Of a stretch of 64,000 nucleotides of DNA, positions 5,773 through 32,951 are shown in pieces. Below the pieces are notes generated by a model. It saw nothing but the letters and a program-made list of their open reading frames with translations, made no database searches and was not told the origin of the DNA. The stretch is from Streptomyces sp. RPA4-2. GTDB taxonomy: Bacteria; Actinomycetota; Actinomycetes; Streptomycetales; Streptomycetaceae. A program made the position numbers and the translations under genes. The stretch covers positions 8,432,001 to 8,496,000 of the forward strand of contig NZ_CP050975.2 of the NCBI RefSeq assembly GCF_012273515.2. Reading direction: 5' to 3'. Position 1 is the stretch's first letter. Each line of letters starts with the position of its first letter.

Positions 5773-5799
5773 GACCGGGCGACGACACTCGTTGTGACA
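5773..5799 (-). promoter_or_regulatory. ECF41-type promoter for the ferredoxin reductase
   Basis: Reading the minus strand, TGTCACA (5799-5793) is followed after 16 nt by GGTC (5776-5773). The ATG is at 5710, giving a leader of about 55 nt. This is a full match to the consensus repeated through the first 33 kb. Confidence 0.7.
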
Positions 5800-5878
5800 C
5801 ACCCGCGCCGGCACGCCGGGGGCGGCCGTCGTCGGCGTTCCTCCCGCCGTCATCGCGTGGACACCGGCACCCGTCCTG

Positions 5879-5914
5879 CACACGTCCGCCCGGCCCAACG
5901 GACCAGGACGTGTG
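5879..5914 (-). terminator. Hairpin downstream of the methyltransferase gene
   Basis: CACACGTCC (5879-5887) and GGACGTGTG (5906-5914) form a perfect 9-bp stem with an 18-nt loop, starting 11 bp past the methyltransferase stop. No U-tract follows, as is usual for actinomycete hairpin terminators. Confidence 0.45.
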
Positions 5915-5924
5915 ATCCGTTGTC

Positions 5925-6689
5925 TCACCAGGGGGATCGGAGCGTCACCCCCAGGAAGCCGGGATCGTCATGCCCCGGCGACGGGACGAATCCGTCCAGT
6001 GCCAGGTCGTCGATCATCCGCGAGCGCGAGGCGGGCCACATCCAGAACGTCTCGGTGTGCTCCCGCAGCAGACCTTCCGCACCCCGGACCCAGTAGTCGA
6101 CGCGGGTGCGGATGCGGTCACCGGCGGCCGACATCACCATGTCTCCGCCGTACGTGTGCTCGCCGACCCGCTGCTCGGGCAGGACCCGCTCGACGCTCCG
6201 GGCAGGAAGCCGGGCAGGCGGCAGCTGCAGGAACAGCGAACCGCCGGGGACGAGGGCCGCGCCGATCGCGGGCCACAGCGCGCGCCGCGCGGCCGGCGGG
6301 AGACAGGCAACAGCGTTGTGGCAGACGGCCACGTCCGCGACCGCGCGCAGAGCCGCCTCGTCCAGAGTGTGCGGGTGCACGGTCACCCGCTCCCTCTCCC
6401 GCGCGGGCAGGGAGGCGAGGCGGGTCATCAAGGACGTGCGCATGGCCCGGGCCGGCTCGACGGCGTGCACGCCGACCCGGGACTCGGCCAGGCTCATCAG
6501 CGTGACCCGTCCGGTACCGGCACCGATGTCCAGCACGCCGAGACGGGCCTTCGCGACTTCCCGGCCGTAGAGGTCACGGACGAGCCTCTCGTCCTCGGCT
6601 GCCTGGAGGATGTCGTAGAACTCCGCCGTGACGGCGTAGGAGCCGGGTCGGGTCCGGGCGATCGGTGCTCTCGCTGTGACAGGGCGCAT
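5925..6689 (-). CDS. Class I SAM-dependent methyltransferase
   Basis: A 254-aa small-molecule methyltransferase. Motif I is GVLDIGAGTGRVTLMSLAES (residues about 51-70), followed by an acidic motif II (VHAVEPARAMR) and motif IV/post-I region ADVAVCHNAVACLPPAARR. The N-terminal segment ending SYAVTAEFYDILQAAEDE is typical of methyltransferases with a lid helix. I use the ATG at 6689, just inside a TTG alternative at 6698. The ECF41-type promoter upstream places its -10 only 10 bp before this ATG, so the transcript is probably leaderless or nearly so. Substrate unknown; its neighbours are redox and detoxification genes. Confidence 0.82.
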   Translation of the reverse strand: MRPVTARAPIARTRPGSYAVTAEFYDILQAAEDERLVRDLYGREVAKARLGVLDIGAGTGRVTLMSLAESRVGVHAVEPARAMRTSLMTRLASLPARERERVTVHPHTLDEAALRAVADVAVCHNAVACLPPAARRALWPAIGAALVPGGSLFLQLPPARLPARSVERVLPEQRVGEHTYGGDMVMSAAGDRIRTRVDYWVRGAEGLLREHTETFWMWPASRSRMIDDLALDGFVPSPGHDDPGFLGVTLRSPW

Positions 6690-6698
6690 GTCCAGCAA

Positions 6699-6725
6699 GA
6701 CAGCACGTGGGCCGCGCCTGTGACA
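6699..6725 (-). promoter_or_regulatory. ECF41-type promoter for the methyltransferase (near-leaderless)
   Basis: Minus strand TGTCACA (6725-6719), N16, TGTC (6702-6699). The ATG at 6689 follows within 10 bp, so transcription should start at or next to the start codon. It is divergent from the promoter at 6791. Confidence 0.6.
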
Positions 6726-6790
6726 GCGGTGACGACGAGTCAGCAGCTCGCCGGCGCGGGGTGGTGGTGATCGCCGTCATAGGCCGCCCC

Positions 6791-6817
6791 TGTCACAGGT
6801 GGATGGCATGCGCAGTC
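6791..6817 (+). promoter_or_regulatory. ECF41-type promoter, variant -10 (TGTCACA-N16-AGTC)
   Basis: TGTCACA at 6791-6797, 16-nt spacer, AGTC at 6814-6817. The -10 differs at its first base from the GGTC/TGTC form. It faces the dehydrogenase remnant at 6970 and diverges from 6699-6725. Confidence 0.45.
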
Positions 6818-6969
6818 AGTTCTCTGGTGCCGGCCTCGGAGCCGGACCGGCCACAGCTTGTCGCTTGACCGCGCCGCGACACAGGTCAGTGTCCCCATGA
6901 CGGTGCGCCGGGCCCGTGTGCCGTGTGCGTCCGGCCCGCGAATCCGGAGTGAAAGCAGAGCACGTCGAC

Positions 6970-7716
6970 ATGACCGCGAGCTTCCCACAGGTATGGCTTA
7001 CCGCGCAGTTCGGCAGTTTCACCGATCTGCCCCGCGATCTGAACCATGCCCGCTGGGGCGGCCGTTCGGTCTTCCCAGCGGATCCGGCGGATGCGGAGTT
7101 CTACGTCCCGCCGCTGACCCAGGACATCGACATCATCGGCAAGCCCGTCGCCCGCATGACTCGTCTCCGGGTGGTTCAGGCACTCAGTTCCGGTACCGAC
7201 GAACTGCGGGCGGAACTGGACCGGATCCCGCGTGACGTGACCTTGTGCAACGCGCGAGGCGTCCCCGCCGGGAGCACGGCGGAGCTGGCCCTGACCCTGA
7301 TCCTCGCCTCCCTGCGGGGAATACCGGAGTTGCTGCACGACCAGGACCGCGAGGCATGGCGGCCGCGAGTCTTCCCGTCCCTGTACGAGCGGTCTGTGCT
7401 CATCGTCGGCTATGGCACCGTCGGGTCCGCTCCGAAGGACGGAGCACTGCTCGTCAACGTGTCCCGGGGGGCCGTCGTCGACACCGGCGCCCTGCTCAAG
7501 GAGGCACACGGGGGACGGCTGCGGGCCGCACTCGACGTGACAGACCCCGAGCCGCTCCCGGCGGGACATCCGCTCTGGGGAGCACCCGGCGTGCTGATCA
7601 CCCCGCATGTCGGCGCGTTCACTCCGTCCTTGTGGCCACGTCTCGAAGAACTTGTCCGACGCCAGTTGACCCGGTTCGCCGCGGGTGAGGAGCTGGACAA
7701 CGTCGTCGCACGCTGA
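6970..7716 (+). pseudogene. D-2-hydroxyacid dehydrogenase with a large internal deletion
   Basis: The reading frame is open (248 aa) but family members are about 305-330 aa. Residues 1-145 match the substrate domain and entry to the Rossmann fold (SVLIVGYGTVGS). The sequence then jumps directly to APKDGALLVNVSRGAVVDTG, which normally lies about 65 residues further on. The missing block contains most of the NAD-binding domain. The C-terminal part keeps the catalytic His motif LITPHVGAFTP. The deletion is in frame, so a protein could still be made, but it should not bind NAD. Start: ATG at 6970, matching the family N-terminus. An ECF41-like promoter is retained at 6791-6817. Confidence 0.75.
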
Positions 7717-8176
7717 CGGGCGCCATGTGCGGCGTGACCGGGTCCGGCGGCGCCCCTCACGGTGACGTTCGGCCGGCATCACGCCATACCGGTGACACGT
7801 CCTCGTGTCACACCGAAGCCGGCTCGCCGGTCATGCCTACGACAGCAGTTCACGAATCCTGCCCGAACAGCACAGCCACGGACGAGTCGGCCGCGCTGTG
7901 CTGTATGCGCGTTCCTCCGGCCCGTGCCGAGCGGGGTCCGCAGCGCCGCGGACCACCGGATCGCCACGGACGGCGCCACCACGGGAGACGGCTCGTGTGG
8001 CGCACCGGCCGGCGCCGAGCCGCTTCTTCGAGGAAGGCGTCGGTGCCCGGCACGGACAGCCACGCTGCACGGCGATCGGAAGCCCTTGCACGCGCCGGTG
8101 CCGAGGCCCCGCGGCAGGGGGACCTCGGCACCGGACGCAGCGAGCTTCGGGTGACGCAGAAACGAAGGGTGAAGAG
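7717..8176. other. Intergenic region before qcrB
   Basis: About 460 bp with no gene I can support. The open frame joined to qcrB from 7805 has an arginine/serine-rich composition and no family resemblance, so I read it as a leader. It contains the ECF41-type promoter at 7806-7832. Confidence 0.55.
7806..7832 (+). promoter_or_regulatory. ECF41-type promoter upstream of qcrB
   Basis: TGTCACA (7806-7812), 16-nt spacer, GGTC (7829-7832). The next gene on this strand is qcrB at 8177, implying a leader of about 335 nt, unless an undetected small gene or RNA is the true target. Confidence 0.55.
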
Positions 8177-9796
8177 ATGGCCAACGACAGCCGGCCGGCC
8201 GAGCCGGGGCAGAGGCGCACCGGGGAGAGGCTGGCCCAATGGTCGGACAGCCGACTGGGCTACCGCCGCCTGGCCCGTTCCGCTCGGCGTCTGGCCTTTC
8301 CGGACCACTGGTCGTTCATGCTCGGCGAGATCGCGCTCTACAGCTTCGTCGTCCTCCTGCTCACCGGCGTCTACCTGAGCTGCTACTTCCACCCTTCCTC
8401 CGAACTCGTGGCGTACCAGGGCACTTACACCCCGTTGCGGGGACAGCTGATGTCGGAGGCCTTCAACTCGACCCTGCACATCTCCTTCGACGTCCGTGGC
8501 GGTCTGCTCATCCGCCAGGCCCACCACTGGGCGGCACTGGTCTTCGTCGCCGCCGTGTTCGTGCACATGCTGCGGGTCTTCTTCACGGGCGCGTTCCGCA
8601 AGCCACGGGAGCTGAACTGGATATTCGGGTTCCTGCTACTCCTCCTGGCTATGTTCGCCGGTCTGACCGGCTACGACCTGCCCGACGACCTTCTGTCCGG
8701 AACCGGCCTGCAGGTCGTGAACGGCACGATCCTCTCGATGCCGGTCGTCGGGACCTACCTGTCGTTCTTCCTCTTCGGCGGTGAGTTCCCCGGCCACGAC
8801 CTGACCGCCCGCTTCAACACCATCCACATCCTGGTCATCCCCGCACTGATGATCGCTCTGCTCGCCGGCCACCTGGCCCTGGCCGTACTTCACCGGCACA
8901 CCCAGCATCCCGGACCGGGCCGTACCAACAGCAACGTCGTCGGCCTCCCGTTCCGGGTGTACGCCGTCAAGGCCGGCGGCTACTTCTTCCTCGTGTCCGG
9001 CGTGATCTTCTTCATGGCGGCCGTCGCGCAGATCAACCCCGTGTGGAAATACGGGCCCTTCCGTCCCGACCAGGTGTCCGCCGACTCCCAGCCCGACTGG
9101 TACATGGGCGTCGCCGACGGCTTCCTGCGCGTCATGCCCGGCTGGGAAATCAGCTTCTGGGGCCACACCCTGGCCCTGGACAACGTCCTGCCCCTGCTGA
9201 TCGGCGTGCTGCTCTTCCTGGCCATGGGTGCCTACCCCTTCCTCGAGGCCTGGGTCACGGACGACGACCGCGACCAGCACCTGCTGGACCGCCCCCGCAA
9301 CCGCCCGGTGCGCACCGCCCTGGGCGTGGCCTGGCTCAGCGTCTACGCGGTGGCCCTCATGGGTGCCGCCAACGACGTGATCGCCACCCGGCTGCACGTC
9401 TCTGTCAATGACGTCACCTGGACCGTGCGCATCGGCCTGTTCGTCGTGCCGGTCCTGACCTTCCTCGTCACCAAACGCCTGGCACTGGGCCTGCAGCGGC
9501 GAGACCGCGACAACGTGCTGCACGGGCGCGAGAGCGGCGTCATCAAACGTCTTCCGCACGGCGAGTACGTGGAGATCCATGAGCCGCTCAGCCAGGCGCG
9601 GCTGCACGCCCTGACCGCCCACGAGCAGTATTCGCCCCTGCGGGCCGCACCCGTGCCGGACGTGGACGGCGCCATGCCCAGCCGAACCCAGCGCCTGCGC
9701 GGCAGGCTCAGCCGCGTCCTCTACGGCCCGGGTGCACAGATCCCCAAGCCCACGGCGGCCGAGTACCGGGAGATCAGCGGCCGGCACCGGTCCTGA
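8177..9796 (+). CDS. qcrB: Cytochrome b subunit of a bc1-type complex (QcrB paralog)
   Basis: A 539-aa membrane protein, full length for actinobacterial QcrB. Two pairs of haem-ligating His occur on the expected helices: STLHISFDVRGG with QAHHWAALVF and HMLRVFF, then TIHILVIPALM with AGHLALAVLHRH. The Qo-site motif appears as PDWY (SQPDWYMGVADG). About nine hydrophobic helices are visible, with a soluble C-terminal tail of about 110 residues. Start: ATG at 8177 behind AAGGGTGAAGAG. In Streptomyces qcrB normally lies in qcrCAB next to cta genes. Here it is alone, with no Rieske protein or cytochrome c, so it is an orphan paralog. Upstream is an ECF41-type promoter. Confidence 0.9.
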   Translation: MANDSRPAEPGQRRTGERLAQWSDSRLGYRRLARSARRLAFPDHWSFMLGEIALYSFVVLLLTGVYLSCYFHPSSELVAYQGTYTPLRGQLMSEAFNSTLHISFDVRGGLLIRQAHHWAALVFVAAVFVHMLRVFFTGAFRKPRELNWIFGFLLLLLAMFAGLTGYDLPDDLLSGTGLQVVNGTILSMPVVGTYLSFFLFGGEFPGHDLTARFNTIHILVIPALMIALLAGHLALAVLHRHTQHPGPGRTNSNVVGLPFRVYAVKAGGYFFLVSGVIFFMAAVAQINPVWKYGPFRPDQVSADSQPDWYMGVADGFLRVMPGWEISFWGHTLALDNVLPLLIGVLLFLAMGAYPFLEAWVTDDDRDQHLLDRPRNRPVRTALGVAWLSVYAVALMGAANDVIATRLHVSVNDVTWTVRIGLFVVPVLTFLVTKRLALGLQRRDRDNVLHGRESGVIKRLPHGEYVEIHEPLSQARLHALTAHEQYSPLRAAPVPDVDGAMPSRTQRLRGRLSRVLYGPGAQIPKPTAAEYREISGRHRS

Positions 9797-10107
9797 ACGA
9801 TCCCCCCACCCGGAACCGTCGTCGCGACATGTCACGCCTTCGACGGTTCTCCGGTCATAGGGGTGAAAGGCGACGAAGGAACTGCCAGCAACCAGGCCAC
9901 GGCGCACGGCAGTTCGCCCTGCGGGACCTCCGTCCCGCCGACCCGAGCGGCCTTCCTCCGCGCAGCGGCGACGTGCCGTCGGCACACCCGCGGCGCACCT
10001 CACCTGTGCCCGAGCAGCGGGCCGTGCGGGGTCGCCGGCCATCAGCACACCACCCGTTCCCCCCTTCGGGAGCGGGACGCACCCATCCGTTCCGAAAGGC
10101 ACTCCAC
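9797..10107. other. Leader of the secreted hydrolase gene
   Basis: About 310 bp without a supported gene. It contains the ECF41-type promoter at 9830-9856 and a GAAAGG ribosome site just before 10108. Confidence 0.5.
9830..9856 (+). promoter_or_regulatory. ECF41-type promoter (TGTCACG-N16-GGTC)
   Basis: TGTCACG at 9830-9836, 16-nt spacer, GGTC at 9853-9856, 33 bp after the qcrB stop. It faces the secreted hydrolase gene at 10108. Confidence 0.55.
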
Positions 10108-10950
10108 ATGAACCGCACCTCCCGCACCAGCCGGGCCCGTGTCTCCCTCACCGTTCTGGCCGGCGCCACCGTCGTCGCAGGCCTGCTCGTCACCACGGTC
10201 GCCCCCGCCTCCGCCGCCAAGAACACCACCTCACAGGGGCCCAAGCCCACCGTCGTCCTGGTCCATGGCGCGTTCGCCGACTCCACGAGCTGGAACGGCG
10301 TCATGCGAAGGCTCCGGCACGACGGTTATCCGGTGGTCGCCGTCGCCAACCCGCTGCGCTCCCTGAGCGGCGACTCCGCCTACCTCAAGGACGTTCTGGC
10401 CGGCATCGAGGGTCCCGTGGTCCTGGCCGGTCACTCCTACGGCGGCTCGGTGATCAGCAATGCCGCCGTCGGCAACAAGAACGTCAAGGCTCTGGTCTAC
10501 CTTGCCGCCTTCCTCCCCGAGAAGGGCGAGAGCGCGGTCGACCTGTCGGGGAAGTTCCCCGGCAGCACTCTCGGCGAAGCGCTGCGCTCCGTGCCGTTCA
10601 CGAACGCGGACGGCTCCCAGGGCACCGACCTCTACATCCAGAACGACAAGTTCCGGCACCAGTTCGCGGCGGACGTGCCCCGTGACGAGACCGACCTGAT
10701 GGCCCTCACTCAGCGACCGGTCACCAACGCTGCCCTGACCGAGGGCGCGGCCGAGCCGGCCTGGAAGACCATCCCCTCCTGGGACCTGATCGCCACGCAG
10801 GACCTCAACATCCCGCCGAAGGCCCAGGAGTTCATGGCAGAGCGAGCCGGCGCCCACACCACGGAGGTCCGGTCGTCCCACGCGGTGAGCGTCTCGCACC
10901 CCAGGAAGGTCACCGACGTCATCGAGGAAGCCGCCGGCTCGGTGCGCTGA
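10108..10950 (+). CDS. Secreted alpha/beta hydrolase
   Basis: A 280-aa protein with an N-terminal Sec signal: basic MNRTSRTSRAR, hydrophobic core to about residue 28 and a likely cleavage after APASA. The mature part is an alpha/beta hydrolase: oxyanion segment VVLVHGAFADSTSWNGV, nucleophile elbow VLAGHSYGGSVIS (Ser) and a C-terminal His in SSHAVSVSHP. Start ATG 10108 follows GAAAGG. The mature protein is closely similar along its length to the cytoplasmic hydrolase at 23508, which lacks the signal. The two are paralogs sent to different compartments. Substrate unknown, esterase or lactonase likely. An ECF41-type promoter lies at 9830-9856. Confidence 0.85.
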   Translation: MNRTSRTSRARVSLTVLAGATVVAGLLVTTVAPASAAKNTTSQGPKPTVVLVHGAFADSTSWNGVMRRLRHDGYPVVAVANPLRSLSGDSAYLKDVLAGIEGPVVLAGHSYGGSVISNAAVGNKNVKALVYLAAFLPEKGESAVDLSGKFPGSTLGEALRSVPFTNADGSQGTDLYIQNDKFRHQFAADVPRDETDLMALTQRPVTNAALTEGAAEPAWKTIPSWDLIATQDLNIPPKAQEFMAERAGAHTTEVRSSHAVSVSHPRKVTDVIEEAAGSVR

Positions 10951-11001
10951 CCCATCCGCGCAGCGCCCACGCGCCGACCGAGTCGCTGCTGAGGCCCCCA
11001 A

Positions 11002-11040: not shown

Positions 11041-11159
11041 CGTGGGCGAACACGGCAGGGCGACGTGCCGGCCGGCGAGGAGAACGGCGGCCCTGGTACC
11101 GGTCCAGGCCGCTCGTTCTCCGCGGCCACACCCGCTCCGGTGGCACGGTTCGTCGGCGT

Positions 11160-15748: not shown

Positions 15749-15762
15749 CTGTGACGTCACAG
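15749..15762. promoter_or_regulatory. Perfect 14-bp palindrome upstream of aceE
   Basis: CTGTGACGTCACAG is fully self-complementary and lies 140 bp upstream of the aceE start, overlapping the stop codon of the epimerase remnant. It resembles a symmetric operator of the CRP/FNR type but could also be a fused pair of TGTCACA-like half sites. No -10 at the ECF41 spacing exists on either side. Confidence 0.35.
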
Positions 15763-16056
15763 ATGGGCGTCCGGCCTGGGAAGGAGGGCTCGCTCCCCGA
15801 GCACCGCGCCGAAGAACGGGGCACGCGTGTCGGTGATCACCGGGCGGGGCCGGCCCCGGGCGGTCAGCACCTCGGCGGTGGCGTCCCGGAGCCGGAGCTC
15901 TGCGGCGGCGAAGGGGTCACCGTCAGCACCGGACGAGGCCTCGACCGGGCGCTGCGCGCCGCCGACGACCGGCACCACCTCCACGCCGTGGTCCCGGAGC
16001 CCGGTGACGGTCCTGGAACCGATCAGACCGGTGGCACCTGCGACGACGACTCTCAT
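15757..16056 (-). pseudogene. NmrA-type epimerase/SDR with the middle deleted
   Basis: A 99-aa open frame. Residues 1-30 are a clean Rossmann start (MRVVVAGATGLIGSRTVTGL). The remainder (AELRLRDATAEVLTARGRP, then TDTRAPFFGAVLGERALLP) matches the C-terminal end of NAD-dependent epimerase/NmrA proteins of about 250-290 aa, as I know the family. Roughly 150 central residues, with the catalytic and cofactor contacts, are gone, yet the frame is preserved. An intact but more distant relative is at 28622-29377. A full ECF41-type promoter is retained at 16150-16176, so a micro-protein may still be produced. Confidence 0.65.
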
Positions 16057-16149
16057 CTGGATCTCTTCCATTGGGGGGCCGATGACCCCGCTGGGTCTCC
16101 GTGGGCGACGGTGGCGGACGTTGGCGTGCCACCGTGCTCGTCACACCTA

Positions 16150-16176
16150 GACAGGACGGGTCCGTTTCCTGTGACA
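16150..16176 (-). promoter_or_regulatory. ECF41-type promoter for the epimerase remnant
   Basis: Minus strand TGTCACA (16176-16170), N16, TGTCTA starting at 16153. It is an exact parallel of the promoter of the intact epimerase gene at 28553 (also TGTCTA). It diverges from 16223-16249. Confidence 0.65.
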
Positions 16177-16222: not shown

Positions 16223-16249
16223 TGTCACAGATCCGCCGGACCCCCGGTC
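16223..16249 (+). promoter_or_regulatory. ECF41-type promoter for the first cupin gene
   Basis: TGTCACA (16223-16229), 16-nt spacer, GGTC (16246-16249), then a leader of about 90 nt to the GTG start at 16344. Confidence 0.7.
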
Positions 16250-16343: not shown

Positions 16344-16811
16344 GTGTCGGAGAACTCACAGCACGCCCACCACGGCCACGACGGACACGGTCACGGAACC
16401 GGCGGCGAGGACGGCCCGAGCTGGACCCGAGCGGCGAAAATGCTTCAGGACGCCGCACCGATCACCATTCCCGAGGGTGCCTCGGCGATGACCATCCACG
16501 TCCAGTGGGAGCCCGGTGACCCCGGCACCCCGCCGCACCGCCACTCCGGCCCGGCGTTCGGCTATGTCATCAAGGGCGCCGTGCGCTTCGAACTCGAGGG
16601 CGAGCCCGAGCGCGTCGTCGAGGCCGGCGGCACCTTCTGGGAGCCGGGCGGCGACGCCATCCACTACCAGGACGGCAACGCCCTCGCCGACGAGCGGACC
16701 GAGTTTGTCGTCACCATGATGTGCGCCCCCGGCAAGCCCATGCTCGAGCTGGTGGACGAGGAGGAGCTGAAGGAGCGCGCCCACCTTCGCGCCCCGCGGC
16801 CCACCGCCTGA
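16344..16811 (+). CDS. Small cupin-domain protein
   Basis: A 155-aa single-domain cupin with a His-rich N-terminus (HAHHGHDGHGHG, residues 6-17) that may bind metal. Cupin motif 1 is PPHRHSGPAFGYVIKGAVRF (the His pair and Glu positions are partly replaced: HRH present, Glu absent) and motif 2 includes FWEPGGDAIHYQ with the last His ligand. I chose GTG 16344 over ATG 16320 because GGAGG lies 9 nt before it. Function unknown; such proteins are often dioxygenases, isomerases or sensors of quinone/aldehyde stress. It has an ECF41-type promoter and is convergent with another cupin gene. Confidence 0.8.
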   Translation: MSENSQHAHHGHDGHGHGTGGEDGPSWTRAAKMLQDAAPITIPEGASAMTIHVQWEPGDPGTPPHRHSGPAFGYVIKGAVRFELEGEPERVVEAGGTFWEPGGDAIHYQDGNALADERTEFVVTMMCAPGKPMLELVDEEELKERAHLRAPRPTA

Positions 16812-16968: not shown

Positions 16969-17022
16969 GGGCCCCGCGCCAGTGACATCCCGGCGACGAC
17001 CGGTGTCACAGGCGCGGGGCCC
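16969..17022. terminator. Hairpin between the convergent cupin genes
   Basis: GGGCCCCGCGCC (16969-16980) pairs with GGCGCGGGGCCC (17011-17022). Inner GTGACA/TGTCAC arms extend it to about 18 bp with one mismatch. It ends 17 bp after the stop of the minus-strand cupin gene and serves that gene. Confidence 0.6.
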
Positions 17023-17030
17023 CGCCTGTC
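17004..17030 (+). promoter_or_regulatory. ECF41-like sequence inside the terminator, antisense to cupin 2
   Basis: TGTCACA (17004-17010), 16-nt spacer, TGTC (17027-17030). The spacing is exact, but it sits in the arm of the terminator hairpin and points into the 3' end of the opposite cupin gene. It may be chance or an antisense promoter. Confidence 0.25.
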
Positions 17031-17038: not shown

Positions 17039-17533
17039 CTATTCCACGAAGTACGAGTCGTGCTTGTCGAAGAACGCGGCACGCTCCTCCTCCGAAGCGT
17101 GTGCCAGCTGTGACACCTGCTCGAAGTACTCCTCGCGCGGGGCGCCTGGGGTGAACAGGAGCAGCATGTCGGCCGGGGCGTCGGAGTCGTTCCGGAAGGC
17201 GTGCAGCCCGCCCTGGGGCACGTGCAGGAAGTCTCCCTTGCGCGCGTCGACCCACTGCACGCCGTCGAACACGCGCACTGTGCCGTCCAGGATGTAGAAC
17301 GACTCCGAGATCCGCTTGTGGAAATGGGTCTTGGGGCCGCCCGCCCGGGGCCGCATCTCGACCCGGTACAGCCCGAACTCACCCCGTGTGGTGCCGGTGG
17401 TCGCCAGATAGTGGGTGGCGTCTTTCCCGGTGCCGCTCTCGCCGATGGCCGGGGGTGTGGTGGCGGGGCGGAAGACGGCGCTGACCTCACCGTCCTCACC
17501 CCAGTACTTCTGCTCCGGGTACGGGTACGACAT
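17039..17533 (-). CDS. Cupin-domain protein (164 aa)
   Basis: A single-domain cupin. Motif 1 is THFHKRISESFYILDGTVRV, which keeps two His and the Glu; motif 2 is GDFLHVPQGGLHAFRN with the final His. It therefore has a complete 3-His/1-Glu metal site. The tail (EEYFEQVSQLAHASEEERAA) is helical and acidic. Start ATG 17533, with AGGA nearby. Proteins of this type are common small cupins of unknown substrate in Streptomyces. It has an ECF41-type promoter (17610-17636) whose spacer is a perfect inverted repeat, and it is convergent with the other cupin. Confidence 0.82.
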   Translation of the reverse strand: MSYPYPEQKYWGEDGEVSAVFRPATTPPAIGESGTGKDATHYLATTGTTRGEFGLYRVEMRPRAGGPKTHFHKRISESFYILDGTVRVFDGVQWVDARKGDFLHVPQGGLHAFRNDSDAPADMLLLFTPGAPREEYFEQVSQLAHASEEERAAFFDKHDSYFVE

Positions 17534-17609: not shown

Positions 17610-17636
17610 GACCGGTGGGCTCCCACCGGTGTGACA
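17610..17636 (-). promoter_or_regulatory. ECF41-type promoter with palindromic spacer (cupin 2)
   Basis: Minus strand TGTCACA (17636-17630), N16, GGTC (17613-17610). The spacer contains ACCGGTGGG-CT-CCCACCGGT (17611-17630), a perfect 9-2-9 inverted repeat that could be an operator or a cruciform. The leader to ATG 17533 is about 70 nt. Confidence 0.7.
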
Positions 17637-20300: not shown

Positions 20301-20303
20301 GGC

Positions 20304-20774
20304 TCAGCCGAACATGCCCGGCTGGTAGCCGCCGGCGGGCTGCCGGTTGATGACGTTGATGCGGTTGTAGGCGTTGATGACGGCGATCAGGGAGATCAGT
20401 GCGGCGAGCTGGTCGTCGTCGTAGTGCTTCGCGGCGTTCGCCCATGCCTCGTCCGACACGCCGTCCGAGCCGTCCGCGATGCGGGTGCCCTGCTCGGCCG
20501 GCTCCAGCGCCGCGCGCTCTTCGTCGGTGAAGACCGTGGCCTCGCGCCACACGGCCACCAGGTTCAGACGCTGCTGTTCCTCACCCGCGGCGAGGGCGTC
20601 CTTGGTGTGCATGTCGGTGCAGAAACCGCAGCCGTTGATCTGGCTGGCACGGATCTTCACCAGCTCCTGAGTGGTGACCGGAAGGGCCCCGTGCACCGCC
20701 GCGCCGGCTGAGTTCAGGTGCTTAATGACCTTGGCGGCAAGGGCGTTGCCGAAGTAGTTGATACGCGCGTCCAT
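20304..20774 (-). CDS. AhpD-like carboxymuconolactone decarboxylase family protein
   Basis: A 156-aa alkylhydroperoxidase-like protein. The redox motif is CGFCTDMHTKDA (CxxCxxxH, residues about 49-60), intact for thiol peroxidase-type chemistry, followed by ERAALEPAEQGTRI and the conserved tail AVINAYNRINV. The start is ATG 20774 behind AGGAG; the longer frame includes the promoter. CMD proteins are the archetypal targets of ECF41 sigma factors, and a perfect ECF41-type promoter sits at 20812-20838. Probable role: peroxide or organic-radical detoxification in the cytoplasm. Confidence 0.9.
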   Translation of the reverse strand: MDARINYFGNALAAKVIKHLNSAGAAVHGALPVTTQELVKIRASQINGCGFCTDMHTKDALAAGEEQQRLNLVAVWREATVFTDEERAALEPAEQGTRIADGSDGVSDEAWANAAKHYDDDQLAALISLIAVINAYNRINVINRQPAGGYQPGMFG

Positions 20775-21082
20775 GATGGATCTCCTCAGGACGGAACGGT
20801 TACAGCCCCCTGACCGGGAGCACCCTGGATCTGTGACATCGTGTGTCGCCGACGCCCCTCCCGTCGGACCGGGCCGCCCTCTGGACCGGCGCGACGCACC
20901 GACATGGAACACCGTGTGACGACAACTTGTGGTCACACCTCGCTTTCAGGTGCCGCCCCCGGCACAGTCGATAACATCGAGCGAACGGGTGAGGGCCGTC
21001 GGCCCGAGCAACCGCGGTCTCGCCGGGGTCTGCGGACACCGGACACGGCGAGCCCGCCATCAGCGAACTCAAGGTGATCACC
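20775..21082. other. Divergent intergenic region (CMD / DUF427)
   Basis: Contains the CMD promoter and, at 20931-20937, a GGTCACA partial -35-like sequence without a matching -10. I see no separate gene and no clear promoter for the DUF427 gene. Confidence 0.5.
20812..20838 (-). promoter_or_regulatory. ECF41-type promoter for the AhpD-like gene
   Basis: Minus strand TGTCACA (20838-20832), N16, GGTC (20815-20812), 38 bp before the start codon. Promoter and target class both fit the known ECF41 pattern. Confidence 0.75.
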
Positions 21083-21959: not shown

Positions 21960-21986
21960 CGTCACACATCGACTCCCGGCCCGGTC
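21960..21986 (+). promoter_or_regulatory. ECF41-type promoter (CGTCACA-N16-GGTC)
   Basis: CGTCACA (21960-21966), 16-nt spacer, GGTC (21983-21986), 49 bp before the GTG start of the HSL-type hydrolase. One mismatch in the -35. Confidence 0.6.
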
Positions 21987-22034: not shown

Positions 22035-22985
22035 GTGAGTGAGATCATTCTCGAGCCCGCCGCACAGGAATTCGCCGACGCGACCGCCAAGCCGCCGCTG
22101 CTGTACGAACTCGGTGTCGAGGGTGCGCGCAAACTGCTCGACGACGTCCAGTCCGGGCCCGTCGAGAAGCTCGACGTGGACGAGAAGTGGATCACTGTCC
22201 CGGCCCGGGTCGGCGACGTGCGGGTGCGCATCATCAAGCCCGTCGGCAGCACCGGTGTCCTGCCTGTGATCCTCTACGTGCACGGCGGCGGCTGGATCCT
22301 GGGCAACGCCGGCACCCACGACCGTCTGGTGCGTGAACTGGCCGTGGGCGCGGAGTCGGCCCTGGTCTTCGTCGAGTACGACCGCTCCCCGGAGGCGAAG
22401 TACCCGGTCGCCATCGAGCAGGCGTACGCCACTGCCCAGTGGGTCACCACCAAGGGCTCCGAAGAAGGCCTGGACGGCTCCCGTATGGTCGTCGCCGGTG
22501 ACTCCGTCGGCGGCAACATGAGCGCCGCCCTGACGCACCTGGCCAAGCAACGCGGCGACGTGACCTTCCGGCACCAGTCGCTGTACTACCCCGTCACCGA
22601 CGCGGGCCAGGACACCGAGAGCTACCGGACCTTCGCCCACGGGCCGCACCTGACCGCGAAGGCCATGGAGTGGTTCTGGAACGCCTACACCACCGACCCG
22701 GCGGAGCGGAACCAGATCACGGCCTCCCCGCTGCGCGCCACCCTGGAAGACCTCCAGGGGCTGCCGCCGGCGTTCGTCGCGGTCGACGAGAACGACGTCC
22801 TGCGCGACGAGGGCGAAGCCTACGCCCGCAAGTTGATCCGGGCCGGCGTGCCGACCACCAGCGTCCGCTACAACGCCAGCCTGCACGACTTCATGATGCT
22901 GAATCCGGTTCGCGGAACTCAGGCCTCCACCGCGGCAATCGAGCAGGCCATCCACGTCCTGCGTGAGGCTCTCGGCACCGACTGA
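22035..22985 (+). CDS. Alpha/beta hydrolase, hormone-sensitive-lipase type
   Basis: A 316-aa esterase/lipase. The HGGG oxyanion motif is VILYVHGGGWILGNAGTHDR (residues about 77-96), the nucleophile elbow is VVAGDSVGGNMSAAL (GDSxGG) and the acid/His are in DENDVLRDEGEAYA and SLHDFMMLNPV. This combination defines the HSL family. The GTG start at 22035 is preceded by AAGGAG at ideal spacing. The gene is monocistronic with an ECF41-type promoter at 21960. Probable substrates are short or medium acyl esters; nothing narrows this further. Confidence 0.88.
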   Translation: MSEIILEPAAQEFADATAKPPLLYELGVEGARKLLDDVQSGPVEKLDVDEKWITVPARVGDVRVRIIKPVGSTGVLPVILYVHGGGWILGNAGTHDRLVRELAVGAESALVFVEYDRSPEAKYPVAIEQAYATAQWVTTKGSEEGLDGSRMVVAGDSVGGNMSAALTHLAKQRGDVTFRHQSLYYPVTDAGQDTESYRTFAHGPHLTAKAMEWFWNAYTTDPAERNQITASPLRATLEDLQGLPPAFVAVDENDVLRDEGEAYARKLIRAGVPTTSVRYNASLHDFMMLNPVRGTQASTAAIEQAIHVLREALGTD

Positions 22986-27823: not shown

Positions 27824-27860
27824 CCCGCTCGAGTCACGGGCGGGCCGGGCACCGGGGGGA

Positions 27861-28036
27861 GCGCCTAAGGGCTGTCCCGTAATCCCCGGTGGATCAGCGC
27901 GCGGCGTCAGATGCGGTGCATCGCAAGGCGGAGGGTCGTCCTCATACTGGGCGTATTCGGGTGATCCGACAACGCGGCGAGGTGCCGTAGCTGTCGTCGT
28001 GCGCCCGCCGGGGATTACGGGACAGCCCTTAGGCGC
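27861..28036. mobile_element. 162-bp MITE (27868-28029) with 29-bp flanking inverted repeats
   Basis: The two ends (27861-27889 and 28008-28036) are perfect 29-bp inverted repeats including flanking bases. Taking TA as the duplicated target, the element runs from AGGGCTG to CAGCCCT (27868-28029), flanked by TA (27866-27867, 28030-28031) inside a palindromic target GCGCC-TA-GGCGC. There is no transposase gene, so this is a non-autonomous derivative, probably of an IS630- or IS5-type element by TA target choice (inference). It lies between the LAL gene and the OsmC gene and supplies part of the OsmC stop codon. Confidence 0.85.
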
Positions 28037-28436
28037 CGGACTCATCCGGTTCCGCCAGCAACGTGGGTACGGTGACGATCGTGACCTCCCTGGTCAACAG
28101 GCGGTGCACGGGACAGCGCCCGGCGGCTGCCAGCAGCTGCTCCCGCTGATCCGGTTCCAGCTCACCGGTCAGCCCGACGTTCTTGACGATGTGTCCTTGG
28201 TCCCCGAACCGCACGGCCACGTCGATCCGTTCGAGCGGCCACTGGTGCCGGTCCGCGAAGGCCCGCAAGGCCATGGAGGTGCAGGTCCCCAGTGCGGCCA
28301 GCAGCAGCTCTCCCGGGGTGGGACCCGCATCGGTGCCGATGGGTTCGGGTTCGTCGGCCGTAAGCGTGTGCGTGCCGATCGCGATCGAGCGGGTGAGCCG
28401 TCTGCCTTCGGCGATGGACACGATGCGCGTGGTCAT
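28029..28436 (-). CDS. OsmC/Ohr family peroxiredoxin-like protein
   Basis: A 135-aa protein of the OsmC superfamily (organic hydroperoxide reductase type). Both redox cysteines are in family positions: GTCTSMALRAFADRHQ (about residue 50) and GRCPVHRLLTREV (about residue 111). It starts with an ATG at 28436 behind GAGAGGA. Its TAA stop codon spans the border of the MITE and its TA duplication; before insertion the stop would have been TAG. It is divergent from the NmrA-type gene, both with ECF41-type promoters whose -35 boxes are about 34 bp apart. Role: reduction of organic peroxides in the cytoplasm. Confidence 0.9.
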   Translation of the reverse strand: MTTRIVSIAEGRRLTRSIAIGTHTLTADEPEPIGTDAGPTPGELLLAALGTCTSMALRAFADRHQWPLERIDVAVRFGDQGHIVKNVGLTGELEPDQREQLLAAAGRCPVHRLLTREVTIVTVPTLLAEPDESGA

Positions 28437-28492
28437 GGGTCTTCCTCTCGGCCAAGGGGGGACCGTGATGTCGCTCATCCCTCCTCTGCAGA

Positions 28493-28519
28493 GACCGAGC
28501 GGCGTACGCGCGTGTGACA
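28493..28519 (-). promoter_or_regulatory. ECF41-type promoter for osmC-like gene
   Basis: Minus strand TGTCACA (28519-28513), N16, GGTC (28496-28493); leader about 50 nt to ATG 28436. Divergent with 28553-28579. Confidence 0.75.
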
Positions 28520-28552
28520 GTTCGGCCCGGGAAAGCGCGGCCGTCCGGGCCT

Positions 28553-28579
28553 TGTCACAGTCGGAGCGGCTGTCCTGTC
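28553..28579 (+). promoter_or_regulatory. ECF41-type promoter for the NmrA-type gene
   Basis: TGTCACA (28553-28559), 16-nt spacer, TGTCTA (28576-28581); leader about 35 nt to ATG 28622. Between the two divergent -35 boxes lies a GGCCCGG/CCGGGCC dyad (28524-28551). Confidence 0.75.
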
Positions 28580-28621
28580 TATAGCACGGAGCCGGAAACC
28601 ACGTCGGTAGAGGAGCATCAC

Positions 28622-29377
28622 ATGCAGGTGGCCGTGGCCGGAGGAACCGGTCTGGTGGGGAAGTACGTCGTCGCGGAACTGCAGGCCGCAGGACATCGGC
28701 CCGTGACCCTCGCCCGTTCACACGGCGTGGACCTGACCACCGGCGTCGGTCTGGCGGAGAGGCTGTCCGGCATCCATGCGGTGATCGATGTGACGAACAC
28801 CGTCACGACGAGGAAGAAACCCGCCGTCGACTTCTTCCGCCGGACCACCGGCCACCTGCTCTCCGCCGCCCGGTCGAACGGGATCGAGCATCTGGTCGCC
28901 CTGTCGATCGTCGGCAGTGACGAGGTCGACTTCGGCTACTACCTCGGCAAGCGCGCACAAGAGGAACTGGTCCGCGACGGTGGTGTGCCGTGGACGGTGC
29001 TGCGCGCCACCCAGTTCTTCGAGTTCCCCCAGCAGTTGCTGGACAACCGGTCGCCCGTGGTCATGATGCCGAGAATGCTCACCCAACCCGTCGCAGCCCA
29101 GGACGTCGCCGAGAAGCTCGTCGACCACGTGCTACAGGGCCCGTCGGGAATGGCGCAGGAGATCGCGGGGCCCGACCGGCTGGACATGGTGGACATGGCG
29201 CGTCGTGTCGTGCGCTCCCAGGGCCGGCGCCGACTCGTCGTGCCGGTGACTCTTCCGGGGCGGGTGGGCAGAGCCATGACGACAGGCGGCCTGCTGCCAC
29301 GCGGGCAGTACGTCCAGGGCCGCCGGACGTTCGACGACCACCTTGCGTCCCTGCGGCCTACGTCAACCAGTCGGTGA
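28622..29377 (+). CDS. NmrA-type NAD(P)-binding epimerase/reductase
   Basis: A 251-aa atypical SDR with a Rossmann N-terminus MQVAVAGGTGLVGKYVVAEL, a cofactor-discriminating region after LARSHGVDL, and WTVLRATQFFEF in the place of the NmrA/quinone-reductase substrate region. The Tyr of the YxxxK motif appears as YYLGKRAQEEL (about residues 104-114), so the motif is present. Such proteins are NAD(P)H-dependent quinone or aldehyde reductases, or redox sensors. Start ATG 28622 after GAGGAG. Epimerases of this class are a known ECF41 target type, and the promoter at 28553 matches. The remnant at 15757 is a distant, collapsed relative. Confidence 0.87.
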   Translation: MQVAVAGGTGLVGKYVVAELQAAGHRPVTLARSHGVDLTTGVGLAERLSGIHAVIDVTNTVTTRKKPAVDFFRRTTGHLLSAARSNGIEHLVALSIVGSDEVDFGYYLGKRAQEELVRDGGVPWTVLRATQFFEFPQQLLDNRSPVVMMPRMLTQPVAAQDVAEKLVDHVLQGPSGMAQEIAGPDRLDMVDMARRVVRSQGRRRLVVPVTLPGRVGRAMTTGGLLPRGQYVQGRRTFDDHLASLRPTSTSR

Positions 29378-29470
29378 CGGCCGCCCCAGGGCGCGCTCGT
29401 GCTCCGGAAGCGGTGATCTTCCACGTGGCTGACGCGCGGGGGAATCCGCCCGGCCACGACGAGGAGCCGG

Positions 29471-32212
29471 TCACAGCGCTGTGCGCAGGAGCCGCCGGGA
29501 GGCGATGCCGAGCTTGGCGTACACCTTGCGCAGGTGCCATTCGACGGTGTGCGGGCTGAGGAACAACTGGGCACCGATCTCGGAGTTGGTGAGCCCGTCC
29601 CGGGCCAGATGCGCGATCTGGGTCTCCTGGGCGGTGAGCGTCACCGCGGCGGCACCGTCGCGCCGGGCCACCGTCTCGCCGTTGGCCCGCAACTCGCGGA
29701 CGGCGCGCTCGGCGAACGCACCCGCACCGAACCGTGTGAACAGGGCGTGCGCCTCGCGCAACTGGTCCCGGGCGTCATTGCGACGGTTCTCCCGCCGCAA
29801 CCACTCCCCGTACAGCAGATGCGCCCGTGCCAACTCCGCCGCGACCCGGGTACGTCCGAGTCGTTCGATCGCCTCGCGGTACAGCTCTTCGGCCGCTTCC
29901 CCCCGGCTCAGCAGCGCCCGGGAGCGCGCCTGGACGCCCAACGCCCAGTCCGTCGCCGCCGCGTCCGTGGTCCGGGTCAGCCGGGCCAGAGCGGCCTCGG
30001 CCGCGTCGGGGCGACCGCTGCGCGCCGCGGCCTCCACCAGCTCGACCAGTCCCCAATTGGCCGCGACCAGGTCCTGCGGATGCTCGCTCGCCGGACGGGC
30101 CGCGTCGAACGCCTCCTCGTATCTGGCCAGACCGTTGTGGAGCACGGCTTGGGCCCGCCGTGCGACGGCCACACCGATGCCCTCACCGCTTTGGAGGGCA
30201 TCTTCCATGCCGGCTTCGATCAGCGGAACGGCATCGTGTGCCCGTCCCTGCCAGGCGGCGAGTGTCATGGTGCCGTACGGCGCGAAGCCGCTGCCGGTCG
30301 CCTCCTGGAGCCGGTCGATCTCCGCGATGAGCAGCGCCGCCGCGTCCAGTTCGCCGGCGCAGGTGTGGACGACGGCCCGCGAGTTGAGCGCGAGCGGCAA
30401 CTCGGCCAGCGCGCCGACGGCGCGGGCGGTCCGCACATGGCGCGTCACCAGCTCCGTCCAGCCCTCGTCGTCCCACATCTCGGCCGCCAGCGCCGAGGCC
30501 AGCCACGACCAGCGTAGGACCTCCTCCGGGGCGGTCTCCCGGCGGAAGGCACGCACCGCGTGGCGCGAGGCGGCGACCGCGTCGCGGTAGTCGCCGGTGA
30601 ACCGGGTGACCAAAGCGTGCAGGAGCAGATCGACGTTGCCCGGCGGCCTCGTGACGGGGGGCAACGTCACCTGCGCCACCACCGCCACCTCGCGTGCGTC
30701 CGCGCCGGAGGCGAGGCGCCCCGCGAACATGGCGGCCGACAGGGTGTCCAGGAAGGTTTCTCGGGCCAGGCCGGCATCCAGCGGCACCAGACGTCGCGCG
30801 GTGGCCAGCAGCAAGGGGAGCGCCTCGTCGACGCGACTGGAGGCGAAGGTGATCTGGGCCTGGACGAGATCTGCGCGAGCGCGACCGGACTCGTCCAGAA
30901 CCCCGCTCCGGCCCAGCGCCAGCAAGTCGCGCGCCGCGGTGGGCGCACCGGCGCGGAGTTTCGCCTGGGCCGCGGCGAGGGCACGCGTCGCCTTGCGCTG
31001 CGGGCTCGGCGTCAGCACGGCCGCGTGGGCGAGGAACGCCGCCGCCGCGGTGGTGCCGCCCCGCGCGAGCGCCCGCGTGGCCGACGACTCCAGCTCGGCG
31101 GCGATCTCCTCGTCCGGCCGCACGGTCGCTCGCGCCAGGTGCCAGGCGCGGCGGTCGGGGTCGAGGACGGGGTCGGTCACCTCCGCCAGGACACGGTGGG
31201 TCTCCCGCAGCTCCGCGAGCCCGGCCGACCGGTAGATCGCGGAGCGCAGCAGCGGATGCCTGAAGCGCACCAGATTCCGGACGTCGAGCAGCCCCGCCGT
31301 CACCGCCGGGCCGGCCTCGGCCAGGTTGATGTCCAGTCGCCCGGCGGCACGTCTCAGCAGTGCCACGTCACCGATCGGCTCGGCGGCGGCGGTCAGCAGC
31401 AGTCGTTGCGTCGCCGCCGGCAGTGAGTGGACCCGAGCGAGGTAGCTCCGCTCGATACGGCTGGTCACCGGTCCGGGATCGGGCAGGTCGAGCCCATCGG
31501 CCGGATCCTCATCGACGAGGTCGTAGGGGAGTTCCAGCAGTGCGAGGGGATTGCCGCGCGCTTCGGCGACCACGCGGTCGCGGACGTGCTCGTCCACCGG
31601 GCCGTTTGCCGCCGCGTCCAGCAGGGCGCGGGCTTCGGTGTCGTCGAGGCCGTCCAGCGTCAGCTCGGGCAGACCGGCCAGATCGTCGCGTCCCCGCCGT
31701 TCACGGGAGGCGAAGACCAGTGCCAGCGGTTCGGCGAGCATCCGTCGCGCCACGAACGCCAACGTCTGCGCGGAGACCCTGTCGAGCCACTGCGCGTCGT
31801 CCACGAGGCAGAACAGCGGCTGCTCGGCGGCCACTTCGGTCAGCAGTCCGAGCACGGCCAGACCGACCAGGAATCTGTCCGGAGGCGGTCCTGTGCTCAC
31901 CCCGAACGCTGTGGCCAGCGCCTCTCTCTGCGGAGGTGGAAGGGAGTCGGCGCGCCCCAGGAACGGGGCACACAACTGATGCAGTCCCGCGAACGGCAAC
32001 TCCATCTCCGACTCGGCACCCGCCCCACGGGCGACGCGGTGCCCAGCGACCCGTGCCACCAGGCTCTCCAGGAGAGCGGACTTACCGATTCCGGCATCAC
32101 CGCGCAGGACCAGTACGGCACTGCGTCCGGCCTCCACCTCCGAGACCAGTTCCTCGAGCGCCTCGTACTCGCGGCGCCGACCACGCAGCCGCCCCGGACC
32201 GTCCCCACTCAC
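29471..32212 (-). CDS. LAL-type LuxR family transcriptional regulator (second copy)
   Basis: A protein of about 913 aa with the same architecture as the 25052 gene: Walker A GDAGIGKSALLESL, Walker B LFCLVDDAQWLD, a helical repeat middle, and a C-terminal LuxR HTH (DGLTNSEIGAQLFLSPHTVE, then WHLRKVYAKLGIASRR). The C-terminus stops shortly after the HTH. I prefer the GTG start at about 32212 (VSGDGPGRLRGRRREYEAL); a TTG start at 32242 is possible. It converges with the NmrA-type gene (93-bp gap). The two LAL proteins are clearly related but diverged throughout. Targets unknown. Confidence 0.9.
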   Translation of the reverse strand: MSGDGPGRLRGRRREYEALEELVSEVEAGRSAVLVLRGDAGIGKSALLESLVARVAGHRVARGAGAESEMELPFAGLHQLCAPFLGRADSLPPPQREALATAFGVSTGPPPDRFLVGLAVLGLLTEVAAEQPLFCLVDDAQWLDRVSAQTLAFVARRMLAEPLALVFASRERRGRDDLAGLPELTLDGLDDTEARALLDAAANGPVDEHVRDRVVAEARGNPLALLELPYDLVDEDPADGLDLPDPGPVTSRIERSYLARVHSLPAATQRLLLTAAAEPIGDVALLRRAAGRLDINLAEAGPAVTAGLLDVRNLVRFRHPLLRSAIYRSAGLAELRETHRVLAEVTDPVLDPDRRAWHLARATVRPDEEIAAELESSATRALARGGTTAAAAFLAHAAVLTPSPQRKATRALAAAQAKLRAGAPTAARDLLALGRSGVLDESGRARADLVQAQITFASSRVDEALPLLLATARRLVPLDAGLARETFLDTLSAAMFAGRLASGADAREVAVVAQVTLPPVTRPPGNVDLLLHALVTRFTGDYRDAVAASRHAVRAFRRETAPEEVLRWSWLASALAAEMWDDEGWTELVTRHVRTARAVGALAELPLALNSRAVVHTCAGELDAAALLIAEIDRLQEATGSGFAPYGTMTLAAWQGRAHDAVPLIEAGMEDALQSGEGIGVAVARRAQAVLHNGLARYEEAFDAARPASEHPQDLVAANWGLVELVEAAARSGRPDAAEAALARLTRTTDAAATDWALGVQARSRALLSRGEAAEELYREAIERLGRTRVAAELARAHLLYGEWLRRENRRNDARDQLREAHALFTRFGAGAFAERAVRELRANGETVARRDGAAAVTLTAQETQIAHLARDGLTNSEIGAQLFLSPHTVEWHLRKVYAKLGIASRRLLRTAL

Positions 32213-32951
32213 CCTGATCCCTGCACGTCGGGAGCATAACAACAGCGCATGCGGCCGGAGCCCTTGCGGCGAGGGGGCGGGCAGGCCCCTCGCGCTCTCC
32301 TCACCAGGGCACTTCGGCGTTCGTCAGCGGGCTCGCCGGCCGGTTGTACCGCAGGGCGGCCCGCTGGGAGCAGGACCCATTTCTCGGAATTCGGCAGGAC
32401 AGCCGGCCAGGGCAACGCGTGCACGTGACGGAGACCATGGGCATGGGAAGGCATGGATGCCTCAAGCGGCGAGACCCCACAGCAGCGTAGGAGCCCGGAC
32501 GCGAGTCCGCTCTCCGAAACGCCCCGCGAGCAGCGCAGCCCTGGTCGTCGCAGGCTGGACGGGTGAACTGGCGCGTCTCCGTCACCCTCGGCCAGCCACT
32601 TGCAGCTGACGGTGGAGCTGTTGTGCGGAGCGGGGGCGTGGACACCGGCGCTGCTGTGGCCGCCGTCCGCCTGGGGCCCTCTGTGGCCCGTCAGACAACA
32701 AGGGAATGCCTCCACGCGGCGGCCGTGCGCACAAGAACGGTATGCGGCGATCCGTGTCACAGAGCGGAGCACTGTCCGGTCTACTAACCAAAAGGCCCGA
32801 ATAGTGCCATTTCGATACCTACGGCATTCGCGTGGAGGGTGCGGGGCTGCGCCCCGATTGTCCATTCCGTGGTGGGCCTGGTCCGTATGCCGTTCCCAGA
32901 GCGGCTTCCCACACCACACTTGACCTCCACCGATCCAAGGACTCGTACCCG
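32213..32951. other. Long intergenic region before the first SpoIIE gene
   Basis: 740 bp of divergent intergenic sequence with no family-like reading frame. It contains the last ECF41-type promoter of the window (32755-32781). The stretch 32784-32900, TA-richer than its neighbours, probably is the leader of the phosphatase gene. Confidence 0.5.
32755..32781 (+). promoter_or_regulatory. ECF41-type promoter for the PAS/GAF/SpoIIE gene
   Basis: TGTCACA (32755-32761), 16-nt spacer, GGTCTA (32778-32783); leader about 165 nt. This is the rightmost copy of the motif in the window. Confidence 0.65.

Follow-up and report, generated by a model that had tools for sequence, protein, structure and literature searches.

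Introduction

Sigma factors of the ECF41 (SigJ) type belong to the commonest sigma groups of actinomycetes, and their regulons were thought to comprise one gene or operon (PMC3426412). In the sections of that study that deal with the Ecf41 proteins of B. licheniformis and R. sphaeroides, the factors generally act on a single target gene or operon, and genome-wide searches gave zero exact consensus matches in both organisms (Wecke et al. 2012). What, then, is to be made of a locus in which a promoter motif of this type occurs over and over again? The question is posed by a stretch of 64,000 nucleotides from Streptomyces sp. RPA4-2 (contig NZ_CP050975.2, positions 8,432,001 to 8,496,000 of the forward strand), referred to as the window in the following, where TGTCACA-N16-[G/T]GTC stands before genes on both strands. 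The window very probably represents the middle of a 92-kb multi-gene ECF41 regulon island with a shifted -10 element. Since many promoter copies are apparently read here by a family regarded as single-target, ECF41 seems to run a whole redox and detoxification neighbourhood. Searches of the open-licence literature turned up no account of an ECF41 regulon with many promoters in Streptomyces. RpoE10, an ECF41 factor of Azospirillum brasilense, reportedly influences more than one neighbouring gene (motility, lateral flagella; cited in PMC8999054).

Results

The motif is concentrated in an island that extends beyond the window

Thirteen exact copies of TGTCACA-N17-GTC are present in the window, while 100 shuffles of its sequence averaged 0.25 copies and never yielded more than 2. 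The complete genome (9.86 Mb, one contig) contains 51 copies and a single copy of the reversed pattern. Twenty-five of the 51 reside within 92 kb (island A, 8421745-8513890, about -10.3 to 81.9 kb in window coordinates), where an even spread would place 0.48 (binomial P 3.6e-37). The genome-wide scan proposed in an earlier note on this DNA thus yields a motif that is far from evenly dense. The same note had confined the sites to 33 kb and seen none after 32.8 kb. Here it proved too narrow, as an exact copy is located at 38112-38138 (minus strand), six more follow 0.3-18 kb past the right window end, and the island runs past both ends of the window. Two smaller clusters contain six sites each, cluster B (8114936-8132379), the last site of which has the CGTC form and lies 12 kb away from the others, and cluster C (1422738-1433222). 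The 14 further genomic sites are scattered. None of the 37 cluster sites falls within a called gene as opposed to 5 of the 14 scattered ones (gene calls are uncurated and stem from a small codon-score caller written for this analysis). The base preceding the -10 element is C or T in 37/37 cluster sites and the first -10 base is G or T in 34/37, though the pattern left both free, while spacer sequences vary from site to site. In comparison with genome G018, that of S. flaveolus NRRL B-1589, for which exact sites only were taken into account, 17 of the 25 island A sites have a syntenic partner with diverged flanks and eight do not. S. cyaneochromogenes likewise possesses the island. Several gene families recur with a site across islands A, B and C.

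ECF41 genes reside in the island

The earlier note had described targets clustering in the absence of the sigma gene. This does not hold for the island as a whole. An ECF41 gene (8431002-8431901, minus strand) has its 5' end 99 bp left of the window, a second one (8425745-8426665, minus strand) follows about 5 kb further left, and a TIGR02957 search detected ECF41 genes in all three clusters. Both island proteins pass the curated SigX4/TIGR02957 cut-off of 323.25 bits (327.8 bits for 8431002 and 329.2 bits for 8425745). In alignments, they carry WLPEP in the linker between sigma2 and sigma4 (YVGPWLPEP and YIGPWLPEP) and a C-terminal NPxK-type motif (NPAKL and NPSKI). Pfam SnoaL_2 matched neither protein at 0.001, and 8431002 not even at 1, so that the SnoaL-like extension is assigned on the basis of the full-length TIGR match and the motifs. 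Pairwise ratios of nonsynonymous to synonymous substitution (dN/dS) are 0.19-0.22 for the island sigma and its close orthologs (clade 1, defined below).

The motif accompanies one branch of ECF41 sigma factors

In 296 Streptomyces genomes, that of strain RPA4-2 included, TGTCACA-N15-Y[G/T]GTC was counted and matches to the island sigma were collected at E 1e-85 or better. Close orthologs (E < 1e-125 and at least 68% identity) are termed clade 1, relatives at 56-61% identity clade 2. The 50 genomes with clade 1, again including RPA4-2, contain 14.3 sites on average, the 13 with clade 2 only 3.0 (median 2; G204 has 10 and G043 has 6) and the 233 with neither clade 1.3. At least five sites were present in 40/50 clade-1 genomes vs 5/246 others (Fisher 1.9e-34). 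In contrast, the classical CGTC form is unlinked to the sigma factor, the mean being 2.68 in the 50 and 2.54 in a subset of 82 from the other 246 (P 0.50). Clade-2 ECF41 was rejected as the sole driver on the basis of the median of two sites in the 13 genomes that possess only this clade. Two genomes that lack the island sigma, G045 and G177, contain five and six sites, probably by chance because these are scattered rather than clustered. Among 298 genomes of the phylum, none of the 281 outside Streptomyces exceeds six matches. Named loci from outside the genus include Streptacidiphilus with four sites and Nocardiopsis sp. FR4 with six. In the latter (locus L088), the six sites span 20.9 kb and the sigma factor is 85% identical to that of the island; horizontal transfer is possible.

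A second set consists of 80 loci from named genomes that were picked with the sigma protein irrespective of the motif and represent the best 80 of at least 455 confirmed ones. These contain 282 sites vs 4 reversed ones, with at least one site in 73/80. The -10 element reads GGTC in 223 cases, TGTC in 52, AGTC in six and CGTC, the form expected for ECF41, in one. TGTCACA-N16-KGTC was found 275 times, and other spacings from 8 to 25 gave 0-10 matches save for N11 with 40, which in our own reading reflects a TGTC that often sits 5 nt before the -10 element. The exact 16-nt spacing proposed earlier is thus borne out. Although 84% of the DNA is coding, only 3/282 sites are placed within called genes, and a same-strand gene start follows within 300 bp for 253/282. 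The earlier link between motif and ECF41 stands with regard to the -35 TGTCACA, the spacing of 16 +/- 1 nt, the clustering and the association with the sigma factor, but not with regard to the -10 element.

Sites and genes in the window

Coordinates in the following list are window positions; the target names include those assigned by the earlier note. Of the 13 genes which that note had placed behind the motif, 11 are preceded by an exact site, while the sites for the secreted hydrolase and the HSL hydrolase each deviate by one mismatch.

5773..5799, minus: exact site TGTCACA-N16-GGTC, 62 bp before the ferredoxin reductase gene; syntenic partner site in G018
4469..5710, minus: ferredoxin--NAD(+) reductase-like protein (Pfam Pyr_redox_2 and Reductase_C)
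6699..6725, minus: exact site TGTCACA-N16-TGTC; called start of the methyltransferase gene 9 bp downstream
5925..6689, minus: class I methyltransferase-like protein (Pfam Methyltransf_12)
6791..6817, plus: exact site TGTCACA-N16-AGTC before the dehydrogenase remnant; partner site absent from G018
6949..7716, plus: D-2-hydroxyacid dehydrogenase remnant (Pfam 2-Hacid_dh_C positions 118-178 of 178, the end of the NAD-binding domain only)
7806..7832, plus: exact site TGTCACA-N16-GGTC; called start of the cytochrome b gene 344 bp downstream
8177..9796, plus: QcrB-like cytochrome b, not part of a qcrCAB operon in the gene calls (NCBIfam NF050120, 728 bits, cut-off 500)
9830..9856, plus: one-mismatch site TGTCACG-N16-GGTC before the secreted hydrolase gene
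10108..10950, plus: secreted alpha/beta hydrolase, a weak regulon candidate (Pfam Abhydrolase_6)
16150..16176, minus: exact site TGTCACA-N16-TGTC before the epimerase/NmrA remnant
15757..16071, minus: truncated NmrA/epimerase-like gene encoding 104 aa, vs about 248 aa in homologs (BLASTP to the G018 homolog 37067-37807)
16223..16249, plus: exact site TGTCACA-N16-GGTC, 94 bp upstream of the cupin 1 gene
16344..16811, plus: cupin 1 (Pfam Cupin_2)
17004..17030, plus: exact site without evident target, since no same-strand gene is called for about 4 kb; no syntenic partner in G018
17610..17636, minus: exact site TGTCACA-N16-GGTC, 76 bp upstream of the cupin 2 gene
17039..17533, minus: cupin 2 (Pfam Cupin_2)
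20812..20838, minus: exact site TGTCACA-N16-GGTC, 37 bp before the CMD/AhpD-like gene
20304..20774, minus: carboxymuconolactone decarboxylase (CMD)/AhpD-like protein, a classical ECF41 target type (Pfam CMD)
21960..21986, plus: one-mismatch site CGTCACA-N16-GGTC, 48 bp before the HSL-type hydrolase gene
22035..22985, plus: HSL-type hydrolase, labelled so in the earlier note; exact site before 3/6 homologs
28493..28519, minus: exact site TGTCACA-N16-GGTC, 56 bp before the OsmC gene
28029..28436, minus: OsmC-like protein (Pfam OsmC)
28553..28579, plus: exact site TGTCACA-N16-TGTC, 42 bp before the epimerase gene
28622..29377, plus: NmrA-type NAD(P)-binding epimerase (Pfam NAD_binding_10)
32755..32781, plus: exact site TGTCACA-N16-GGTC, 170 bp before the phosphatase gene; partner site absent from G018
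32952..35456, plus: PAS/GAF/SpoIIE phosphatase with HATPase domain (Pfam)
38112..38138, minus: exact site overlooked in the earlier note, 96 bp upstream of an open reading frame for 140 aa
37593..38015, minus: this 140-aa reading frame, a possible target (sub-threshold DUF4440 match only, E 0.12)

The same target families retain the site across species

A mixed locus set includes contigs fetched with the motif as well as two contigs counted twice (G018 C45 = L080, G009 = L096). Family counts were therefore repeated on the 80 sigma-chosen loci alone, to which the following numbers refer unless stated otherwise. A site precedes 11/11 homologs of the ferredoxin reductase, 24/25 of a fumarate-reductase-like flavoprotein, 13/15 of the methyltransferase (median distance 9 bp), 13/20 of a type-2 NADH dehydrogenase-like (NDH-2-like) protein and 11/17 of cupin 1. 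The types of target expected for ECF41, i.e., CMD, oxidoreductases or epimerases, are represented by CMD (14/17) and NmrA-type proteins (51/64). With 13 of 15 homologs preceded by a site in loci chosen independently of the motif, the proposal of QcrB-like cytochrome b as a new regulon member gains support. A family of 83-aa coiled-coil-like proteins without significant Pfam match (L031:11892-12143, minus strand) has the site in 10/10 cases at a distance near 158 bp. For the HSL family, the median distance of the three exact sites is 46 bp, and none of three ferritin-like genes has a site. Homologs of the OsmC gene in the window possess a site in 5/7 cases in the mixed set and in 1/3 in the sigma-chosen set. 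Neighbouring families mostly lack it (YceI 0/10, MFS 0/6, PDH E1 0/4, ilvC 0/3, LuxR-LAL 1/4). Left of the window, a WhiB-like gene starts 113 bp after the site at 8426982 of the genome. Sites are present within 600 bp of WhiB-like genes for 12/12 copies in named loci and 16/16 overall, and of ferredoxin genes for 15/17 and 17/19, respectively, counts that may miss diverged copies as the search patterns were built from sequences met in this analysis. The PAS/SpoIIE phosphatase, also put forward earlier as a member, is preceded by a site in 3/3 full-length family members, but this case is weaker, since all three stem from motif-chosen contigs and the 80 loci contain no copy.

Several genes have kept an intact promoter site despite being shortened. 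This applies to the dehydrogenase (6949-7716) and the epimerase (15757-16071) in the window and to a flavoprotein and a ferredoxin gene at 8429151-8429501 and 8429952-8430056 of the genome. Longer homologs of the shortened flavoprotein, ferredoxin and epimerase are known in relatives. The methyltransferase start lies 9 bp after the -10 element, just as the median in its homologs, indicating either that the mRNA is leaderless or that the true start lies further downstream.

A proposed regulon with many promoters and its alternatives

We infer from these sequence patterns that TGTCACA-N16-[G/T]GTC is the promoter recognized by one Streptomyces branch of ECF41 (SigJ) sigma factors. The C-terminal SnoaL-like domain would keep the sigma factor inactive through contact with the WLPEP linker, and binding of a small molecule, which might be an electrophile or resemble a quinone, would set it free. 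The freed sigma factor would then bind the sites and activate dispersed single genes. Putative targets in electron transfer are the type-2 NADH dehydrogenase-like protein, the fumarate-reductase-like flavoprotein, ferredoxin, ferredoxin reductase and the stand-alone QcrB-like cytochrome b; those in detoxification would be CMD/AhpD, OsmC, cupins, NmrA and the methyltransferase, with the WhiB-like regulator as a further target. This gene content may be taken to indicate a stress regulon, as the earlier note did. Some ECF41 members are involved in oxidative-stress protection, others are not, according to the part of PMC8103513 that covers the group.

A number of observations weigh against a common regulon. 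Ten of the 50 clade-1 genomes hold 0-4 sites, one of them zero, and G100 carries eight sites in 23 kb (C1:1966299-1988971) without a sigma match at 1e-85. Site rates are low for an OsmC family termed OsmC-165 (8/21), for cupin 2 (4/10) and for the secreted hydrolase (3/20). The sigma genes themselves are rarely preceded by a site (clade-1 4/72, clade-2 6/27 in the 80 loci). Moreover, a TGTC-type site is located 46 bp upstream of a more distant ECF41 gene at 590001 of the same genome (region 589928-590957), the product of which shares 44% identity with the island sigma, and the -10 form is thus not exclusive to the island branch.

The island could also have arisen when separate cassettes, each consisting of one ECF41 sigma gene and one target, were gathered by duplication and transfer, in which case it would not be one regulon. 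Several ECF41 genes do reside in and near the clusters and the classical targets CMD and NmrA recur. Furthermore, loci with sigma factors of 55-65% identity (n=32), nearly all from other genera, have 1.25 sites each. However, the 25 sites of island A face only two full-length ECF41 genes, the classical types account for a minority of the target families, the same families retain the site across species, and the loci with a sigma factor at least 70% identical (n=48) average 5.0 sites. We therefore regard a mere assembly of cassettes as unlikely. The difference between 5.0 and 1.25 sites per locus rather suggests an ancestor with one or two targets, followed by expansion mainly in Streptomyces.

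The sites might, moreover, be operators of a DNA-binding regulator instead of -35 and -10 elements. TGTCACA is nearly palindromic (TGTnACA), and divergent pairs are common, with 161/391 sites of the mixed set also having a gene start on the other side. Yet the site as a whole is asymmetric, its spacing is fixed at 16 nt, and where only one side has a gene start, 202 sites point toward it and 23 away in the mixed set with its motif-chosen and two duplicate contigs. The -35 element and the spacing match those of the mapped ECF41 promoters reported in PMC3426412, and the motif tracks the ECF41 branch. Asymmetry, fixed spacing and orientation in particular make operators very improbable.

Composition or repeats as the origin of the clustering, for which the high G+C content alone would speak, were rejected with near certainty on account of the near-zero counts from shuffles, the reversed pattern and letter-permuted motifs (mean 1.5 and maximum 14 vs 319 for the real motif in the locus set that includes motif-fetched contigs) and of spacers that differ between sites.

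A SigJ-like protein lacking WLPEP

Besides its ECF41 sigma genes, the genome encodes SigJ-like proteins at 8512917-8513798, 8424861 and 1430366. WLPEP is missing in all 32 family members inspected (0/32), DGxG and NPxK of the C-terminal domain are mostly kept, and with 148.6 bits the protein encoded at 8512917 fails the curated TIGR02957 cut-off. The family occurs in 38/296 genomes, 34 with clade 1, three with clade 2 only and one with neither. It is present in 28/28 genomes that possess both sigma clades vs 6/22 that possess clade 1 alone. Twenty-two genomes have the gene 50-307 bp from the clade-2 sigma gene (17 tail-to-tail, 5 tandem), while in the 296 genomes it was never found within 600 bp of a clade-1 sigma gene. 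A site is located upstream of 11/23 copies in the sigma-chosen loci.

Is this protein simply an ordinary ECF41 sigma factor or the product of a decaying pseudogene? We give this explanation slightly less than an even chance. In precomputed Pfam data, certain relatives hit the model for sigma region 4, the 8424861 type evolves loosely (pairwise dN/dS 0.54-0.68), and AlphaFold returned a weak structure (mean pLDDT, the program's confidence score, 69.8), with a good C-terminal domain and a poor region 4. The consistent lack of WLPEP while DGxG and NPxK persist, the lower dN/dS of 0.32-0.38 for the 8512917 type and the proximity to the clade-2 sigma gene argue against it. The best Foldseek match of the model is M. 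tuberculosis SigJ (5xe7, E 9.7e-11, TM only 0.33); the predicted structure supports kinship, not a mechanism.

Judged by neighbourhood and co-occurrence, the WLPEP-less protein may be a partner of the clade-2 ECF41 factor. The NPDKL motif of ECF41 is reported to contact the YVGPWLPEP linker in the section of PMC7730460 on this group. A sigma-derived anti-sigma switch is conceivable, though we put it forward with clear reservations: an ECF41 copy would have lost WLPEP together with much of the region that reads the -10 element and kept the inhibitory SnoaL-like domain with NPDKL; it would bind the WLPEP linker of the adjoining clade-2 sigma factor in trans and, in those cases where it is under the regulon promoter itself, would act as a feedback brake in a two-sigma redox regulon condensed into the island.

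Relation to known systems

The multi-promoter ECF41 regulon proposed here would share with the Ecf41 systems of PMC3426412 the -35 TGTCACA, the 16-nt spacing, the WLPEP linker, the C-terminal extension and targets of the CMD and epimerase type, as far as these are given there. It would differ from them in the -10 element, [G/T]GTC instead of the consensus CGTC, and in having tens of sites in the sequence instead of a single target, as illustrated by the 25 sites of the island and the mean of 14.3 in the 50 clade-1 genomes. Motif, spacing, targets and sigma factor assign the system to ECF41; it is distinguished by promoter number, -10 element and the candidate partner. The nearest precedent for a local regulon are the SCO3450 and SigJ iModulons of S. 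coelicolor, the genes of which are clustered at SCO3437-SCO3465 and SCO1265-SCO1288 (PMC11538686). As proposed here, a sigma factor seemingly regulates genes at one chromosomal place; unlike here, the text on these iModulons mentions no TGTC motif. For the WLPEP-less protein, a candidate only, SigG1-RsfG of S. tsukubaensis offers a parallel, as an ECF sigma factor of the SnoaL_2 type (ECF56) resides beside its antagonist. According to the account in PMC7730460, the NPDKL motif of ECF41 is missing in ECF56, and the partner of SigG1 is RsfG.

A regulon of tens of promoters in about one in six Streptomyces genomes would provide a testable gene list for ECF41 function, and this list points toward redox and electron-transfer proteins including the stand-alone QcrB-like cytochrome b. 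It also raises the questions how a regulon grows from a single-target sigma factor, what brings the targets together on the chromosome and whether a sigma factor that has degenerated can come to regulate its relative.

Two minor observations concern the surroundings. The large regulators encoded at 25052-27823 and 29471-32212 of the window were labelled LuxR-LAL from their first residues alone. Islands C (about 1.42 Mb) and A (1.35-1.44 Mb) lie at similar distances from opposite contig ends and share gene families.

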